Shown: in pieces, positions 36,977-42,598 of the stretch
Layout of the letters: each line of letters starts with the position of its first letter
How positions within the stretch are numbered: the first letter of the stretch is position 1
Source of the DNA: a virus
Virus record (IMG/VR): IMGVR_UViG_3300025669_000074
Location: 1-42,598 of that record
Direction: 5' to 3' (one strand)
Length of the DNA stretch: 42,598 bases
Program-made: the position numbers and the translations under genes
Notes under the pieces: generated by a model
The model's database searches: none
What the model saw: only the letters and a program-made list of their open reading frames with translations
What the model was told of the DNA's origin: nothing

Positions 36977-37527
36977 AAAAAAAGAATAAAACCGATGTCA
37001 ACGCTGATAATGATTATTGTAAAATCTTTTCTGATGCTGAACAAATAACCCGTTATCACTGCTATTTAAACACAGAGATTGAAGAAGTGCACCATTACCA
37101 TGAGTTGTTAGAAACATTGCGTAAAGCACTACCGACAGATTCCGTGACTATACACATCAACAACTTCGGCGGGTATATGTACACGACACAACAAATACTT
37201 AACCGTATGAACGAATGTAATGCCCCGATAACCACGATTTTAGAAGGTACTGCACGATCCGCGGCATCTATGATATTTTTATCCGGTGATGCTTTAGAAC
37301 TTCACGAAAATTCGACGTTAATGTGCCATTATTATTCCGGAGCTATTACTGGAAAGGGTAACGAAATTGAAACTCAATCTGCTTTTGACAAAAAATATAT
37401 TAAACAACTGTTTAGAGATGTTTACAAAGGATTTTTGTCCAAGAGTGAATTGACACGGTTGTTCAAGGGCGAAGATTTTTGGTTTGACTCGAAACAGATA
37501 AGAACTAGGTTGAAAAAGAAAAAATGA
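36973..37527 (+). CDS. ClpP-like serine protease
   Basis: A 184-residue protein with ClpP-fold motifs: I-N-N-F-G-G-Y (oxyanion-type Gly-Gly, 62-68), catalytic-type Ser96 in G-T-A-R-S-A-A-S, His119 in M-C-H-Y-Y-S-G, and a candidate Asp139. About the length of ClpP. It is in the plus arm, not next to the capsid genes, and the morphogenesis arm already has a prohead protease. So it may degrade host proteins or work with a host AAA+ ATPase. The N-terminal ~30 residues are Lys/Asp-rich. Confidence 0.85.
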   Translation: MKKKNKTDVNADNDYCKIFSDAEQITRYHCYLNTEIEEVHHYHELLETLRKALPTDSVTIHINNFGGYMYTTQQILNRMNECNAPITTILEGTARSAASMIFLSGDALELHENSTLMCHYYSGAITGKGNEIETQSAFDKKYIKQLFRDVYKGFLSKSELTRLFKGEDFWFDSKQIRTRLKKKK

Positions 37528-38321
37528 TATATTCCGACAAAACCGAAATTAAATGTGATCTGTCTAAAAAGAAAATTTTTATTTTTGACATTGACAAAAC
37601 ATTAGCTGAAAGTAAACAAACGATAGAATCCAAAATGTGTTTGATACTGGAAAAGTTAATGGACAAATATCCGGTAGCGTTAATTTCCGGCGGGAAAATC
37701 GAAACTTATAACGACACGTATTTGAAATTTTTAGATGTCAACGAAACGAATTTACATTTATTCCCGACTTCGGGTTCTGGTTATTATAGATACGAAGATG
37801 GAAAACAAGTTAAAGTTTATAGTAAAGAAATTCCAAGTGAAGAAAGAGAAAGAATATTAGACAGTTTCAAAAAGATGTTACAGATAGTTGACTATAAATT
37901 TCCCGAAGAATCATACGGAGAAGTTTTAGAAGATCGTGGAACACAAATAACATTTTCTGCGTTGGGACAGAAAGCGCCTTATTATTTGAAAAAGGTTTGG
38001 GACCCGAAACACGAAAAACGAATGCCTATGCAACGAATATTACAAAACATGTTGCCGAAGTATGATGTTAAGATTGGAGGGTCAACTTCTGTCGATGTGA
38101 CAATGAAGGGTATTAATAAAGGTTATGGTATTAATAAAATTACTGAATACTTAGGTTACGAGATAGACGAAATGTTTTTTGTCGGCGACGATTTATCACC
38201 TGTTGGTAATGATTATCCCGTTCACTTAGAAGGTGTGGATTGTTTACATGTTAGTGATCATTTACAAACATACGACTTTTTACATTGGTTATTATATCCT
38301 ACAGAATATAAAAGTTTATAA
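37524..38321 (+). CDS. HAD-family phosphatase, phosphomannomutase-like
   Basis: A 265-residue protein with HAD motifs: I D-I-D-K-T-L-A (Asp22/Asp24), II L-I-S-G-G-K, and III F-F-V-G-D-D-L-S-P-V-G-N-D. The cap region and length resemble eukaryotic-type phosphomannomutase/HAD IIB enzymes. It acts on a sugar phosphate in the cytoplasm, perhaps for surface glycans; substrate not known. Overlaps the ClpP stop by 4 bases. Confidence 0.85.
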   Translation: MIYSDKTEIKCDLSKKKIFIFDIDKTLAESKQTIESKMCLILEKLMDKYPVALISGGKIETYNDTYLKFLDVNETNLHLFPTSGSGYYRYEDGKQVKVYSKEIPSEERERILDSFKKMLQIVDYKFPEESYGEVLEDRGTQITFSALGQKAPYYLKKVWDPKHEKRMPMQRILQNMLPKYDVKIGGSTSVDVTMKGINKGYGINKITEYLGYEIDEMFFVGDDLSPVGNDYPVHLEGVDCLHVSDHLQTYDFLHWLLYPTEYKSL

Positions 38322-38384
38322 ACATTAAAGAATTAAATATATTTAATTGCATGGTTTTGGAGTGGTTTTCAATTTCCACTCTAA
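38315..38384 (+). promoter_or_regulatory. TATA-type box and leader hairpin before ERCC4 nuclease
   Basis: TTTATAAA at 38315-38322 overlaps the stop of the HAD gene. Expected start is near 38345. A 9-bp hairpin (one G-U) TTGGAGTGG / CCACTCTAA at 38357-38384 would be in the leader. It could end upstream transcripts or control the nuclease message. Confidence 0.5.
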
Positions 38385-38402
38385 ACACTTCCTAATTAAA
38401 AG

Positions 38403-38855
38403 ATGGTGATGATGAATATAATAGTGGACTCGCGAGAGCAAAAGCCGCTTTGGGACGAGAATTGTACAGTTGCTAAGTTAGACGCTGGCGACTATAGTAT
38501 CGAAGGGTACGAGGATTGTTTTTCTATTGAACGTAAAAGCTTGGGCGATTTGTACGGAACTTTCGGTAAGGGTCATAAACGGTTTAGGCGAGAGTTAGAA
38601 AGAGCTGAGAAGTTAGAATATTTTGGGATTGTAATAGAGGGGAGTTACACCGATTGTTTACATAAGAATTTTGTAGGAGCACAATATTCCCGAATGAAGG
38701 GTAAGGTTATCACGGCTATTCTGTTTACTTTACATGTTAAGTATCGAGTACCGTTTTTCTTTGCTAAAGATAGAGAAGAGTCTCGGAAAATTATCAAAGA
38801 GTTAATGAAGGCGTTTATTAAAATGAAAGAAGAGGAAGCTAAAGATGCTGAATGA
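38403..38855 (+). CDS. ERCC4-type endonuclease
   Basis: A 150-residue stand-alone nuclease domain of the XPF/Mus81/Hef type: I-I-V-D-S-R-E-Q-K near the start, G-D-Y-S-I-E, and the active-site S-I-E-R-K-S-L-G-D-L. Cuts branched or forked DNA; likely in virus recombination or replication. No helix-hairpin-helix follows, as in other viral versions. Three in-frame ATGs (38403, 38409, 38412) are possible; GGTGAT at 38405-38410 may be the ribosome site, so the true start is uncertain. Confidence 0.88.
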   Translation: MVMMNIIVDSREQKPLWDENCTVAKLDAGDYSIEGYEDCFSIERKSLGDLYGTFGKGHKRFRRELERAEKLEYFGIVIEGSYTDCLHKNFVGAQYSRMKGKVITAILFTLHVKYRVPFFFAKDREESRKIIKELMKAFIKMKEEEAKDAE

Positions 38856-39177
38856 ATTAAAAACATTGGAAGATTTAGAGCACGGAGAAAAATGTATGAA
38901 TTGTGAAAAGATATTTAGAGTAGGTTTAATAGATGTAGAAGAATTAAGACAAAACATAATCAAGTGGATTAAAACAATCCAAGAAAAGTCTGACACACAT
39001 TGGGCGAGATTAGACAAACATCATTATACTGGGTATGAAAAGATATACGGCGGGAGTCCATTTAGTTGGGAATTAGAAGGAATGAGTTTTGATGATTGGC
39101 ACGAAGCTTCTGACCCACCTGCAGCAATAATGATTTTAAAACACATTTTCAATATAACTGACGAGGAACTAAAATGA
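38845..39177 (+). CDS. Paralogue B of 'E-L-K-T-L-x-D-L' small protein family
   Basis: A 110-residue protein starting M-L-N-E-L-K-T-L-E-D-L, then C-M-N-C, a middle region with Y-E-K-I-Y-G-G-S-P-F-S-W-E-L, and the end I-L-K-H-I-F-N-I-T-D-E-E-L-K. It shares start and end, not middle, with the gene at 35355. The start overlaps the nuclease by 11 bases. Confidence 0.6.
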   Translation: MLNELKTLEDLEHGEKCMNCEKIFRVGLIDVEELRQNIIKWIKTIQEKSDTHWARLDKHHYTGYEKIYGGSPFSWELEGMSFDDWHEASDPPAAIMILKHIFNITDEELK

Positions 39178-40034
39178 CTAACGAACAAAAAGTAATTTGC
39201 TACTACCACAACGACTTAGACGGGATTTGTAGCGCAGCTATTGTGCTAAAGAAATACCCAGAAGCTGAATGTATATCTTGTATGCACGATGTCACGAGAT
39301 GGGACCCAGCTGAGGTTAAAGGCAGTAAGGTTTTCGTGGTCGATTTTGCATTCAAAGATATGGAAATGTTAAACAACCATTGTGATTTAACGTGGATAGA
39401 TCATCATGTAAGCAACATCAGAAATAATAATAAAGACAGTTGGGAAAACAAAGATATTCCCGGTATTAGAAATTTCACAGAAGCAGGTTGTGTGTTAACT
39501 TGGTTGACATTATTCCCGGGTATAACAATTCCAAAACCAGCTTTATTAATAGGCGACCAAGATGTATGGACGCTGAAGTTTGGCGACGAAACTAAACGTT
39601 TTGTAGAAGCAGCTAATTTGTATATAAAGTCGCCAGAAGATATTAGATGGAAGAAATTGTTAGGCGGTTCGAAAGATCACAATTTAATGTTGTTTGATTG
39701 GTATATGTCTGGAAAAGTGTTAGTAAATGCCAGAGAGAACCGGATAAAAAAATTGTTTAAATGTGGCGTCGAAGGAGAATTAAATGGACATAAAACCATG
39801 TTTATAAATTCAGTGGTCGACTTTAGTTATTTAGGTGAATACTGTTATAAAACAAAATCGTACCAGATTGCGTTTATTTGGCAACATGTTAGAGATAAGA
39901 TAGTGGTACATTTACGTAGTAACACTGTTGATGTTGAAAGTATTGCTAAACAGTTAGGTGGTGGTGGACATGAATCTGCGTCTGGGTTTAGTTGTACTTT
40001 AGAAAAATTACTGGAGTTGTTACCACAAAAATGA
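39174..40034 (+). CDS. DHH-family phosphoesterase
   Basis: A 286-residue protein with DHH domain motifs: H-N-D-L-D-G near 12, V-V-D-F-A near 55, and I-D-H-H-V-S near 76. The DHHA1 C-terminal motif G-G-G-G-H-E-S-A-S-G-F lies near 265. Family enzymes hydrolyse short oligoribonucleotides, pAp or cyclic dinucleotides (NrnA-type). In a virus it could clear nano-RNA, or a cyclic nucleotide defence signal; substrate not decidable from sequence. ATGA overlaps with both neighbours. Confidence 0.88.
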   Translation: MTNEQKVICYYHNDLDGICSAAIVLKKYPEAECISCMHDVTRWDPAEVKGSKVFVVDFAFKDMEMLNNHCDLTWIDHHVSNIRNNNKDSWENKDIPGIRNFTEAGCVLTWLTLFPGITIPKPALLIGDQDVWTLKFGDETKRFVEAANLYIKSPEDIRWKKLLGGSKDHNLMLFDWYMSGKVLVNARENRIKKLFKCGVEGELNGHKTMFINSVVDFSYLGEYCYKTKSYQIAFIWQHVRDKIVVHLRSNTVDVESIAKQLGGGGHESASGFSCTLEKLLELLPQK

Positions 40035-40168
40035 AATGTCCTCATTGTAAAAAGAAAATCAAAGAGTTAGAAAATTTAGAAGAAGAGTTAGAAATCGTGT
40101 TAGATGGTTATGACAAAATTCGACAAAACGTCGATAAAATGTTTAAGTTAATGATAGACGATTTATAA
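40031..40168 (+). CDS. Small C-x2-C coiled-coil protein
   Basis: A 45-residue frame starting M-K-C-P-H-C-K-K-K-I, then one long charged helix. The ATG at 40031 overlaps the DHH stop. One Cys pair only, so zinc binding would need a dimer. Ends in a TATA-type box. Confidence 0.58.
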   Translation: MKCPHCKKKIKELENLEEELEIVLDGYDKIRQNVDKMFKLMIDDL

Positions 40169-40169
40169 A
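40162..40169 (+). promoter_or_regulatory. TATA-type box for nucleotidyltransferase-radical SAM block
   Basis: TTTATAAA overlaps the stop codon of the preceding gene, as at 38315. The expected start is near 40192, at the beginning of the structured leader. It should drive the nucleotidyltransferase, radical SAM and Ser-rich-tag genes. Confidence 0.5.
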
Positions 40170-40186
40170 AATTAATAATTACATTC

Positions 40187-40266
40187 GGCTAGAGGTCGCA
40201 AACTTAGTTTGCTTTATATACCGAGGCAAAAGGGTCACCGTCTGATCTACGGGGTTGCAACCGGCC
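40187..40266 (+). ncRNA. Candidate structured leader RNA, switch-like
   Basis: Two mutually exclusive folds are visible. A long-range stem pairs GGTCGCAA (40194-40201) with TTGCAACC (40255-40262), one mismatch, plus GGCT/GGCC (40187-40190/40263-40266). The local hairpin GCAAAC-TTA-GTTTGC (40198-40212) uses the same 5' strand. A CCGT-ACGG hairpin with a 7-base loop (40238-40252) sits inside. The long stem ends nine bases before the ribosome site at 40275-40279. The stretch is GC-richer than its surroundings. I recognise no known riboswitch class. Confidence 0.5.
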
Positions 40267-40289
40267 AAAATAATGGAGGAAAACAAAAA

Positions 40290-40736
40290 ATGAGTACAAT
40301 AATATTAGTATCTGGTGGATTTGATCCTGTACACAAGGGTCATGTTAGAATGTTCAAAGGAGCTAAAAAGTTAGGCAGTATGCTTTTCGTGGCAGTCAAC
40401 AGCAATGAATGGGTAAAAAAGAAAAAGGGTTATGTTTTCATGGATTGGTTAGAAAGAACCGAAATCATAGAAGAATTCGAATGTGTTGATGGAGTGTTTC
40501 ATTTTCAGGACGACGATGAAGGAACCGCCAACAATGCAATTAGAAGAATTAGACAGATATACCCAGACGATGGTATTATTTTTGCAAATGGTGGAGACCG
40601 TGGTGAAGGCAACGTGCCAGAAATTGGTGTTTGTGAAGAGTTGGAAGTAGAAATGAGATGGAACGTCGGTGGACATAAAATTCAAAGCTCTTCAGAGTTA
40701 GTAAAGAAAGGTAAGGAGAACAAAAAGAAAAAATGA
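40290..40736 (+). CDS. Cytidylyltransferase-like nucleotidyltransferase
   Basis: A 148-residue protein with nucleotidyltransferase motifs: G-G-F-D-P-V-H-K-G-H near 9-18 (HxGH), E-R-T-E-I-I near 54, and K-I-Q-S-S-S-E-L near 131. It transfers CMP or AMP to a phosphate-bearing substrate (glycerol-3-P, sugar-P, NMN or FMN in known relatives); substrate unknown. Start ATG 40290 has GGAGG ten bases upstream; an in-frame extension to 40209 would run through the structured leader. Overlaps the next start. Confidence 0.82.
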   Translation: MSTIILVSGGFDPVHKGHVRMFKGAKKLGSMLFVAVNSNEWVKKKKGYVFMDWLERTEIIEEFECVDGVFHFQDDDEGTANNAIRRIRQIYPDDGIIFANGGDRGEGNVPEIGVCEELEVEMRWNVGGHKIQSSSELVKKGKENKKKK

Positions 40737-41770
40737 AATGGATTAAAAAATTTAAATCTCCAGGGTATAATTACCACTTCAATAGCAAAGATGGTTTATT
40801 CCTGAGATGGGGGAAGGATGTTAAAGACGACCCAGACTATTCACCGTTCGGACCAGAGATATTAGACATAGAAATTAGTTCTGTGTGTTCTAATGGTTGT
40901 AAGTTTTGTTATAAGTCTAATACTGCGAAAGGTAAAAACATGTCTTTGGATAAATATAAAAAGATATTTAGCAAATTCCCAGATCATGTCACTCAGATAG
41001 CGTTCGGGATAGGAGACATTGATTCTAACAAGGATTTGTGGAAGATAATGGAATATACAAGGGAAAATAAAGTTGTCCCGAATGTAACGATAAATGGGTC
41101 CAGAATGACACCGGAGTATTATGATAAGTTAGCCAATGTGTGTGGCGCAGTTGCGGTTAGTTTATACGACCATGATGTTTGTTATGACGCGGTTAAAGAA
41201 CTGACTGACAGAGGAATGGACCAGATTAATATTCATTGTTTGTTGTCTAACGAAACTTACGATAAATGTATGAAAGTTTTGAAAGATAAGTTAGAAGATG
41301 GTAGGTTGGAAAAGTTAAACGCCGTTGTGTTTTTATGGTTGAAACCTAAAGGTAAGAGGAATACTCTAACACAGCTAAAGGATATGGACAAATTTAAAAA
41401 GTTGATAGATTTTGCGTTTGAAAACGAAATCGGGATTGGTTTCGACAGTTGTTCGTCGGGAAACTTTTTAGAAGCGATTAAAGACAAAGAAAATTATGAA
41501 ACGATTTCTAATTATGTAGAGCCATGTGAATCGTGCTGTTTCTCATACTATTTAAATGTTGATGGAATAGGATTTCCCTGTAGTTTTAGTGAAGAAGTTG
41601 ACGATTATGAAGGTATTGACATTGAAAATTGTGACAACTTTCTGGGAGACGTTTGGTTTGGGAAAGAGTCCCGGCGGTTCAGGAAAGATTTGTTAGAGAC
41701 GAAATGTAATGGAAGCTGTAGAAGTTGTCCATTATACGATTTACATATTGGAGGAAAAGATGAAGATTAG
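40733..41770 (+). CDS. Radical SAM protein with SPASM-like C-terminus
   Basis: A 345-residue protein. The radical SAM cluster motif C-S-N-G-C-K-F-C is at 52-59. A G-I-G-D segment and a barrel follow, then a Cys-rich end: C-E-S-C-C near 266-270, G-F-P-C-S-F and C-N-G-S-C-R-S-C-P-L-Y near 325-335. This matches SPASM/twitch auxiliary cluster domains that modify peptides or proteins. The stop overlaps the start of the first tagged protein by 11 bases, so the products are co-translated. It is the likely modifier of the Ser-rich-tag proteins, but that is inference. Confidence 0.87.
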   Translation: MKWIKKFKSPGYNYHFNSKDGLFLRWGKDVKDDPDYSPFGPEILDIEISSVCSNGCKFCYKSNTAKGKNMSLDKYKKIFSKFPDHVTQIAFGIGDIDSNKDLWKIMEYTRENKVVPNVTINGSRMTPEYYDKLANVCGAVAVSLYDHDVCYDAVKELTDRGMDQINIHCLLSNETYDKCMKVLKDKLEDGRLEKLNAVVFLWLKPKGKRNTLTQLKDMDKFKKLIDFAFENEIGIGFDSCSSGNFLEAIKDKENYETISNYVEPCESCCFSYYLNVDGIGFPCSFSEEVDDYEGIDIENCDNFLGDVWFGKESRRFRKDLLETKCNGSCRSCPLYDLHIGGKDED

Positions 41771-42035
41771 ACAAGGATTTGTAAGCAACTCAAGCTCAAG
41801 CAGTTTTATAATTGGTAAATGTAATCTAACAGATGACCAAATAAGTATGATATTGAACTACGAACAACATGCTGAAAAATTGGGATGCAACATCGCATGG
41901 ATTGACAGCCCAAAATGGATAATTACTAATGATGGATCTATTATCGAAGGTTCAACTAGTATGGATAATTTTGACATGAATGATTTTTTAGAAAAAATAG
42001 ACGTAGATTTAACGAAAATTAAATGGGGTTATTAA
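41760..42035 (+). CDS. Ser-rich-tag protein 1
   Basis: A 91-residue protein from ATG 41760, preceded by ATTGGAGGAAAAG and overlapping the radical SAM stop. It starts M-K-I-R-Q-G-F-V-S-N-S-S-S-S-S-F-I-I, then an acidic, variable region with Trp (I-A-W-I-D-S-P-K-W-I). The same tag starts the next two genes. I recall this tag from hypothetical proteins of other phages and bacteria, with no known function to me. Candidate substrate of the radical SAM enzyme. Confidence 0.72.
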   Translation: MKIRQGFVSNSSSSSFIIGKCNLTDDQISMILNYEQHAEKLGCNIAWIDSPKWIITNDGSIIEGSTSMDNFDMNDFLEKIDVDLTKIKWGY

Positions 42036-42037
42036 TA

Positions 42038-42403
42038 ATGAAAATAAGAAAAGGATTTGTAAGCAACTCAAGCTCAAGCAGTTTTATACTAAGTATGCCA
42101 AAAGACAAAAATAAAATAATATACACGATAAAGGAAGATTTATTATCTAAGGACGTAGGAACATGTGATACCGTTGATGAATTGAAAGATTGTTATACTG
42201 AAAGATATTGTATTACTGAAGAAGAAGAATGTGATAGTGACGAAGAATATTTAAAAGCTAAAAAAGAAATCGAAAATGGTAATAAGATAGTTATTGTATC
42301 TGTTTCAAATGAAGACTGTGACAGTATAAGTCAACACATTCACGAACAAGGGTTAGACAAAGAACAATTACCAAAAGATGTAAAATTTATTGGAGGAGAT
42401 TAA
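42038..42403 (+). CDS. Ser-rich-tag protein 2
   Basis: A 121-residue protein from ATG 42038, chosen because the tag M-K-I-R-K-G-F-V-S-N-S-S-S-S-S-F starts there; an ATG at 42023 overlaps the previous stop. The body is acidic, with C-D-T-V-D-E-L, C-Y-T-E-R-Y-C, E-E-E-C-D-S-D and E-D-C-D-S. Tag DNA is almost identical to that of protein 1, while the body differs. The stop is followed by one base and the next start. Confidence 0.7.
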   Translation: MKIRKGFVSNSSSSSFILSMPKDKNKIIYTIKEDLLSKDVGTCDTVDELKDCYTERYCITEEEECDSDEEYLKAKKEIENGNKIVIVSVSNEDCDSISQHIHEQGLDKEQLPKDVKFIGGD

Positions 42404-42404
42404 A

Positions 42405-42598
42405 ATGAAAATAAGAAAAGGATTTGTAAGTAACTCGAGCAGTTCGAGTTTTGTTGTTATCGGTGCATTATTTGATTCATGCGAAGTTGATGAATTATGT
42501 GAAAAAATCAGGAAAGAACATGAGGATTTAGAGATTCCGCCTTGCAGGCTCCATCCAAATTTTTGCTTCGCAAAAACTTCTCTAAATCCTTGTTATAC
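42405..42598 (+). CDS. Ser-rich-tag protein 3, cut by window edge
   Basis: Open for 64 codons from ATG 42405 to the edge. Starts M-K-I-R-K-G-F-V-S-N-S-S-S-S-S-F-V-V, then C-E-V-D-E-L-C and P-P-C-R-L. The first 26 bases equal those of protein 2; the Ser codons then differ synonymously. The last ~60 bases are in a dense inverted-repeat structure and may not belong to the gene; the contig end could be a join artefact. Confidence 0.6.
   Translation, partial: MKIRKGFVSNSSSSSFVVIGALFDSCEVDELCEKIRKEHEDLEIPPCRLHPNFCFAKTSLNPCY
42523..42590. repeat. Nested inverted repeats at window end
   Basis: Outer arms AGGATTTAGAGA (42523-42534) and TCTCTAAATCCT (42579-42590) are a perfect 12-bp inverted repeat. 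Inside are two small hairpins: GCCT-TGC-AGGC (42539-42549) and TTTTTGC-TTC-GCAAAAA (42560-42576). This T- or clover-shaped fold is unlike the rest of the window. Confidence 0.7.

Follow-up and report, generated by a model that had tools for sequence, protein, structure and literature searches.

The virus record IMGVR_UViG_3300025669_000074 of IMG/VR, a linear sequence of 42,598 bp that was analysed in full (hereafter the window), encodes near its right end a radical S-adenosylmethionine (SAM) enzyme and, directly downstream, three tandem genes whose products begin with nearly the same peptide (Table 1). The enzyme and this N-terminal tag are associated in both viral and cellular genomes, and a single radical SAM enzyme probably acts in trans on many folded proteins and modifies their common tag. 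This interpretation is based on the conservation of the tag, its linkage with the enzyme in both search directions, the fold of the modelled enzyme, and the disorder of the tag in a model of one tagged protein; binding and modification of the tag by the enzyme are what we infer from them. The pair is described by none of the NCBIfam, Pfam or PADLOC models returned, and no prior description of the tag or of the enzyme–tag pair was found in the literature searched, which lacks most subscription papers. It looks like an apparently undescribed system for the chemical modification of a common protein tag.

In the window, the radical SAM gene indeed overlaps the first of three tandem tagged genes, at the positions given in a first-pass annotation, and the overlap comprises 11 nt. 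The common start MKIR(Q/K)GFVSNSSSSSF, noticed in the same annotation, is present in all three tandem products, and a degenerate tag pattern matches the window three times, compared with zero expected matches. The ATG of the enzyme gene at position 40733 overlaps the stop codon of the preceding nucleotidyltransferase gene. Because the window is the full linear record, the tagged array is truncated on its right side.

The tag is an 18-residue N-terminal peptide common to unrelated proteins. Scans with a degenerate DNA pattern, which specified an ATG-AAR start and GFV(S/T)N(S/T/C)5F and thereby imposed MK and GFV, matched at least 119 viral stretches (viral_contigs) and 32 cellular stretches; a scrambled, comparably specified pattern matched one locus across viral_contigs. 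The consensus in 286 complete unique proteins is M-K-(I/V/T)-R-x-G-F-V-(S/T)-N-S-S-(S/T)-(S/T/C/A)-S-(F/Y), followed by two hydrophobic residues. Although R4 is absent from the scan pattern, it is present in 283 of the 286 proteins; tagged proteins retrieved via the enzyme alone carry the same consensus letters, and the tag is N-terminal in every tagged protein. In the annotated phage collection, neither the tag by itself nor tagged protein 1 found a match as a tblastn query, probably because of low-complexity masking.

Linkage of tag and enzyme is evident among viruses. Of 50 viral records that bear the tag, 35 contain a member of the enzyme family phrog_7293 (E < 1e-68), compared with none of 40 viral records drawn at random (Fisher p = 3e-13); the latter were at least 30 kb long and on average smaller than the tag-bearing ones, with seven exceeding 120 kb. 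These control records, none of which contains the tag, were drawn by random 14-mer and 15-base patterns, because PhoH as a control probe for large phages retrieved only T4-like phages. The number of tags is higher in enzyme-bearing records than in those that lack the enzyme (mean 5.2 versus 2.1; p = 3e-5), and a single enzyme accompanies up to 11 tags per record; one enzyme therefore goes with many tags.

The same linkage emerges when the search starts from the enzyme. A single-sequence search of viral_contigs yielded zero relatives; an alignment of 30 enzymes yielded 116, and 80 viral loci were taken using the enzyme alone. Tags are located within 10 kb of the enzyme in 74 of the 80 loci, with the nearest tag at most 100 bp away in 22 of them; all 312 tags lie on the strand of the enzyme, and 32 control loci contain none. 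Two of the six tagless loci belong to records that match the tag pattern outside the stretch considered (G080 with two matches, G083 with one dubious match). After near-identical enzymes had been merged, and with a stricter tag call, a tag is present in 64 of 72 groups, and the next neighbour family in at most 12 of 72. The commonest other neighbours, judged by their N-termini, are presumably RNA ligase, metallophosphatase and dUTPase, i.e., ordinary phage genes. In an annotated phage collection (50,697 records), the enzyme occurs in 194 records, 171 of them at ≥80% coverage; most are T4-like phages that infect Klebsiella, Enterobacter, Cronobacter, Citrobacter or E. coli. From the same genera, 175 and 174 records contain two tagged bodies of phage RB16, numbers close to those for the enzyme.

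Behind the tag, the proteins are highly diverse. Their bodies (284 in total) form 90 BLAST clusters, including 67 singletons, and 99 representative bodies have almost no Pfam match. The tagged proteins have a median length of 135 amino acids and mostly range from 70 to 250 amino acids. The first body of the window is a member of a family that recurs (29 of the 284 bodies, some of them cellular); the second is a singleton. The acidity noted for the bodies in the window extends significantly across the entire family, with a median isoelectric point of 4.5 and 96% of the values below 6, compared with 6.5 and 44% for same-strand open reading frames (ORFs) of similar size. Cysteines, also pointed out at first pass, do occur in 88% of the bodies but are not distinctive, since 85% of the background ORFs have them as well. 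In the AlphaFold2 model of tagged protein 1, residues 1–13 are disordered (predicted local distance difference test score, pLDDT, below 50 at residues 8–11), a strand begins at S14, and the body is folded; judging from this single model, the tag would be an exposed flexible tail. A fold search with body 1 gave nothing significant (best E = 0.05).

It is conceivable that the tag serves for docking alone and stays chemically unchanged, and that the enzyme modifies the attached body or has the tagged protein as its partner or activator. This would agree with the linkage of one enzyme to many tags and with the presence of cysteine, a common target of radical SAM enzymes, in most bodies. It is nevertheless unlikely, because the approximately 90 unrelated body clusters have no residue pattern in common apart from the tag, cysteine is no commoner there than in background ORFs, and nearly all positions from F7 to F16 are conserved, which exceeds the usual needs of a docking segment.

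Several observations concern individual bodies. Homologues apparently without a tag are encoded in L014, L108 and L278 and are possibly paralogues that have lost it. A Dehalococcoidia contig (L346:7380-9491) encodes a tagged protein of ~690 amino acids with a hydrophobic, membrane-like stretch directly after the tag. In RB16, a VWFA-like protein of 739 amino acids (RB16p109; L198:3921-6140) is encoded between the two tagged genes. PHROG 7397, the family of RB16p111-type tagged proteins, is annotated as "unknown function"; RB16p106-like tagged proteins match phrog_132 weakly (E = 3e-10), and its label "Head-tail adaptor" was not used.

Among cellular genomes, a relative of the enzyme is present in 26 of the 29 that bear the tag, and its gene usually adjoins the tag gene. 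Together with the viral counts in both directions, this completes the tabulation of radical SAM genes around the tag that was suggested in the first-pass annotation, and the tag is not widespread without such a gene nearby. The viral-type enzyme occurs in Spirochaetes, Izimaplasma, Bacilli and some archaeal contigs; some of these loci may be proviruses. A sister clade, which has a fuller SPASM domain, is found in Veillonella parvula SKV38, Lachnobacterium bovis, Acetatifactor muris, Sulfuricurvum, Verrucomicrobia and others. In the family of Lachnobacterium, it is present in 6 of 299 genomes (E ≤ 1e-40), a patchy distribution as would be expected of a mobile, defence-like element. Five further loci of Lachnospiraceae were retrieved via the enzyme alone: all three full-length enzymes adjoin a tag (the variant with D6 and T9), and the two partial matches have no adjoining tag. 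The variant MKxRx(D)FVTNSSSSSF, in which Asp replaces Gly6, lies beside sister-clade enzymes at L341, L488, L489 and L490; one of the loci with this variant has several tandem tagged genes.

Eight loci of the sister clade in Firmicutes, Sulfuricurvum and Verrucomicrobia (L338, L342, L343, L344, L345, L357, L340 and L339) have the gene order [MBL]-STAND-[~140-aa protein]-tagged protein-enzyme-[M1E1E6-like], where MBL denotes metallo-beta-lactamase fold, STAND denotes signal transduction ATPases with numerous domains, and bracketed genes are not universal; the verrucomicrobial locus (L339) has the tagged gene but differs in spacing. The STAND proteins match Avs2 models (E = 1e-15 to 1e-29), and two of three have an N-terminal trypsin-like domain; the MBL proteins match LmuA/Avs1a models (E values down to 1e-62). 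The operons share with AVAST (Avs1/Avs2) and Lamassu (LmuA) an LmuA/Avs1a-like MBL protein and an Avs2-related STAND protein, in some cases with the trypsin-like domain; a trypsin–NACHT fusion was observed. They differ by their additional genes (the ~140-aa, tagged, radical SAM and M1E1E6-like genes), which lie outside any PADLOC system model; the STAND proteins comprise 845–984 amino acids, no Avs system was matched in full, and a function in defence is putative. The tagged protein of the operon has homologues among the bodies of phage arrays: body cluster 0 joins the STAND-linked protein and phage proteins by weak, body-wide similarity (best E = 3e-6).

These bacterial operons bear on the possibility that the tag is a leader for virion targeting or for a pre-head protease, with an incidental linkage to the enzyme. 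The internal proteins of phage T4 have a short, conserved N-terminal capsid-targeting sequence on unrelated small proteins, which is the same layout, and RB16 and RB43 are T4-like. A leader of the T4 type directs packaging, and the pre-head protease cleaves it; virion proteomics bearing on the tagged proteins did not turn up in the literature searched. However, the tag also occurs in bacteria beside STAND and MBL genes and is specifically linked to a radical SAM enzyme, which makes such a leader improbable.

The first-pass annotation had alternatively regarded the tag as a self-standing module that spreads by recombination. In the window, tags 2 and 3 are identical in their first 26 bases, as had been reported; tags 1 and 2 differ at bases 6, 9 and 13 and then share 38 identical bases, one more than the 37 reported. 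This near-identity, which accompanies differing bodies in a tandem array, is best read as a recent local duplication or exchange, so that recombination may act locally. Across genomes, by contrast, it is the peptide and not the DNA that is conserved: AGY as well as TCN codons are used for the serines, and four-fold sites are free to vary, so selection acts on the peptide. That the tag is a selfish N-terminal module or a recombination cassette, conserved through DNA exchange and without a common biochemistry, is therefore very improbable; this would also leave the tight link to one enzyme family unexplained.

The window enzyme matches PF04055 (E = 5e-11; 43.4 bits with a cut-off of 29.5) and phrog_7293 (E = 9e-83), which is annotated as "unknown function" in PHROGs. 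The motif of the SAM cluster (C52-x3-C56-x2-C59) is invariant in the alignment columns of 30 relatives, as are C240, C265, C283 and C332 in the C-terminal part, which are candidate ligands and would suffice for one auxiliary cluster. The AlphaFold2 model (pLDDT 93.8) has its nearest Foldseek matches in SuiB, CteB, SkfB, TigE, BlsE, the anaerobic sulfatase-maturating enzyme anSME (4k37) and PqqE, which are mostly peptide-acting enzymes. Fold and cysteines are in line with the earlier assignment as SPASM-type; however, the SPASM/Twitch domain of the viral enzymes is reduced. TIGR04085 (cut-off 27) scores 28–39 bits with the bacterial clade and 25.1 bits with RB16 and is not among the matches listed for the window protein. 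Weak matches to pVip (E = 2e-8) and to the prokaryotic viperin model NF038283 (27.8 bits) would favour a viperin-like protein, antiviral or nucleotide-modifying, that has nothing to do with the tags. This is scarcely credible, since the NF038283 score is far below the cut-off of 180, and the best structural matches, which are maturases of ribosomally synthesized and post-translationally modified peptides (RiPPs), the four extra invariant cysteines and the linkage to the tag all speak against it.

In phage RB43 (G044, 92715-93864) and in G029, G030 and G033, the enzyme gene is apparently split or interrupted and the tags are retained. Such genes yield two partial matches with in-frame stops, and the annotation of RB43 lists two hypothetical proteins.

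Modification of the tag by the enzyme would proceed as follows. The enzyme, with its SPASM/Twitch-type auxiliary cluster, would recognise M-K-x-R-x-(G/D)-F-V-(S/T)-N-S-S-S-x-S-F and install a radical-chemistry modification on it in trans, most likely an intramolecular crosslink within F7–F16 or the oxidation or epimerisation of a tag residue. Because the substrates have no other feature in common, recognition must reside in the tag; it is also the likely site of modification because it is near-invariant through F16. A flexible tag ahead of varied, folded and acidic proteins would allow one enzyme to serve the full set of substrates. FxsB-type enzymes form F-x-S crosslinks, and the conserved F7-V8-S/T9 makes such a crosslink one option, alongside which ether formation, epimerisation and oxidation of Ser are just as possible. 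The virus-encoded modification system proposed at first pass, with the tag as recognition element or target, is thus supported by the two-way linkage, and the modification itself is inferred. The proposed layout of conserved leader and variable core was not borne out: the bodies mostly comprise 70–250 amino acids, a folded structure is predicted for the single body modelled, and the likely target is the invariant tag itself. A glycyl-radical site (R-x-G-F) was rejected, because its spacing is unlike that of the motif R-V-x-G-Y and an enzyme of that kind would need larger bodies.

Some observations weigh against modification of the tag by the enzyme. The enzyme is missing from 15 of the 50 tag-bearing viral records, some of which comprise 114–214 kb, although the contigs are possibly incomplete; other radical SAM genes are present in six of the 15, none of which scores as a phrog_7293-type enzyme, and lie within ~7 kb of a tag in only two (G020 and G036). 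No conserved family of peptidases, exporters or other processing proteins was found among the neighbours of the enzyme. In RB16, other T4-like phages and some further records, enzyme and tag are ~20 kb apart, which implies that pairing does not require adjacency. Finally, residue 9 of the tag is Ser with viral-type enzymes (374 S, 0 T) and predominantly Thr with the sister clade (4 S, 13 T); this switch fits enzyme–tag matching as weak evidence, but it needs only two changes in the tree and amounts to about one event instead of repeated co-evolution.

Judged by the features tested, the enzyme–tag pair would work like a radical SAM/SPASM maturase and its substrate, yet it is neither a leader/core RiPP system nor an FxsA/FxsB system. 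With SuiB, CteB, SkfB and TigE, the nearest solved structures, it shares the radical SAM core with a putative C-terminal SPASM/Twitch domain and the location of the gene beside that of a small, motif-bearing protein. It differs from them in its substrates of mostly 70–250 amino acids with one invariant N-terminal tag and no separate leader and core, in the presence of up to 11 tags per enzyme, in the lack of a conserved exporter or peptidase, and in sequence (11–19% identity). A leader/core RiPP was rejected on the median substrate length of 135 amino acids, the ~90 body families, the folded body in the model, and the same lack of a conserved peptidase or exporter. FxsA/FxsB (FxSxx-COOH) of the VMAP ternary conflict systems comprise a radical SAM/SPASM gene in an NTPase-centred operon and a C-terminal FxSxx peptide that is released by a metallopeptidase (PMC7159879). 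The F-x-S motif recurs in the tag; this system was nonetheless rejected, because the motif is N-terminal here, no metallopeptidase was seen, and no Fxs model of NCBIfam is among the matches listed for the enzymes or the tagged proteins. Like the viral enzyme as proposed here, anSME is a SPASM radical SAM enzyme that acts on Ser or Cys of a protein in trans; in contrast to its substrates, the tag lacks a C/S-x-P-x-R motif and the tagged proteins are not sulfatase-like.

A role in virus–host or virus–virus conflict, to which the MBL–STAND operons and the acidic bodies lend themselves, is speculative. The tandem arrays of varied acidic proteins in phages, the homologous bodies in STAND/MBL operons and the patchy distribution point to conflict, with decoys, counter-defence or defence against competing phages as possible functions; virion targeting is disfavoured by the bacterial operons. 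As a tentative and rather doubtful extension, the same radical-made structure might be placed on an arsenal of unrelated acidic proteins, with the enzyme–tag pair operating within a STAND/MBL immune operon and the phage arrays serving as decoys or effectors.

If the proposed modification is true, viruses encode a radical SAM modification of a shared protein tag, in a system that ranges from very large and T4-like phages and viral or archaeal metagenome contigs to immune-like bacterial operons. It would provide a candidate substrate, and hence a testable function, for a radical SAM family of "unknown function" in PHROGs and give dozens of orphan protein families of phages one feature in common. 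The phages RB16 and Lw1 have E. coli as host, and the bacterial form is present in Veillonella parvula SKV38, which makes the system directly testable; the tag could serve as a portable modification handle.

Table 1. Radical SAM gene and tagged array at the right end of the window.
Feature	Position	Strand	Evidence
Radical SAM enzyme, reduced SPASM/Twitch C-terminus, phrog_7293 family, 345 aa	40733..41770	+	PF04055, phrog_7293, conserved columns, AlphaFold2, Foldseek
Tagged protein 1, 91 aa, body family "cluster 1"	41760..42035	+	ORF, body clustering, AlphaFold2 model
Tag 1: MKIRQGFVSNSSSSSF	41760..41807	+	Sequence, tag pattern match
Tagged protein 2, 121 aa, acidic, singleton body	42038..42403	+	ORF, body clustering
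Tag 2: MKIRKGFVSNSSSSSF	42038..42085	+	Sequence, tag pattern match
Tagged protein 3, incomplete (64 codons before contig end)	42405..42598	+	ORF, tag pattern match
Tag 3: MKIRKGFVSNSSSSSF	42405..42452	+	Sequence, tag pattern match

The final 75 bases of the window (42522-42598) contain an inverted repeat of 12 bp (AGGATTTAGAGA at 42523-42534 and TCTCTAAATCCT at 42579-42590) and a hairpin (TTTTTGC-TTC-GCAAAAA); the end of the third tagged protein may have arisen as an artefact of assembly. Upstream of the enzyme, on the same strand (37524-40736), are genes for a HAD/PMM-like phosphatase, an ERCC4 nuclease, a DHH phosphoesterase (phrog_4771) and an HldE-like nucleotidyltransferase (phrog_7878), among which the ERCC4 nuclease hints at a putative archaeal host.
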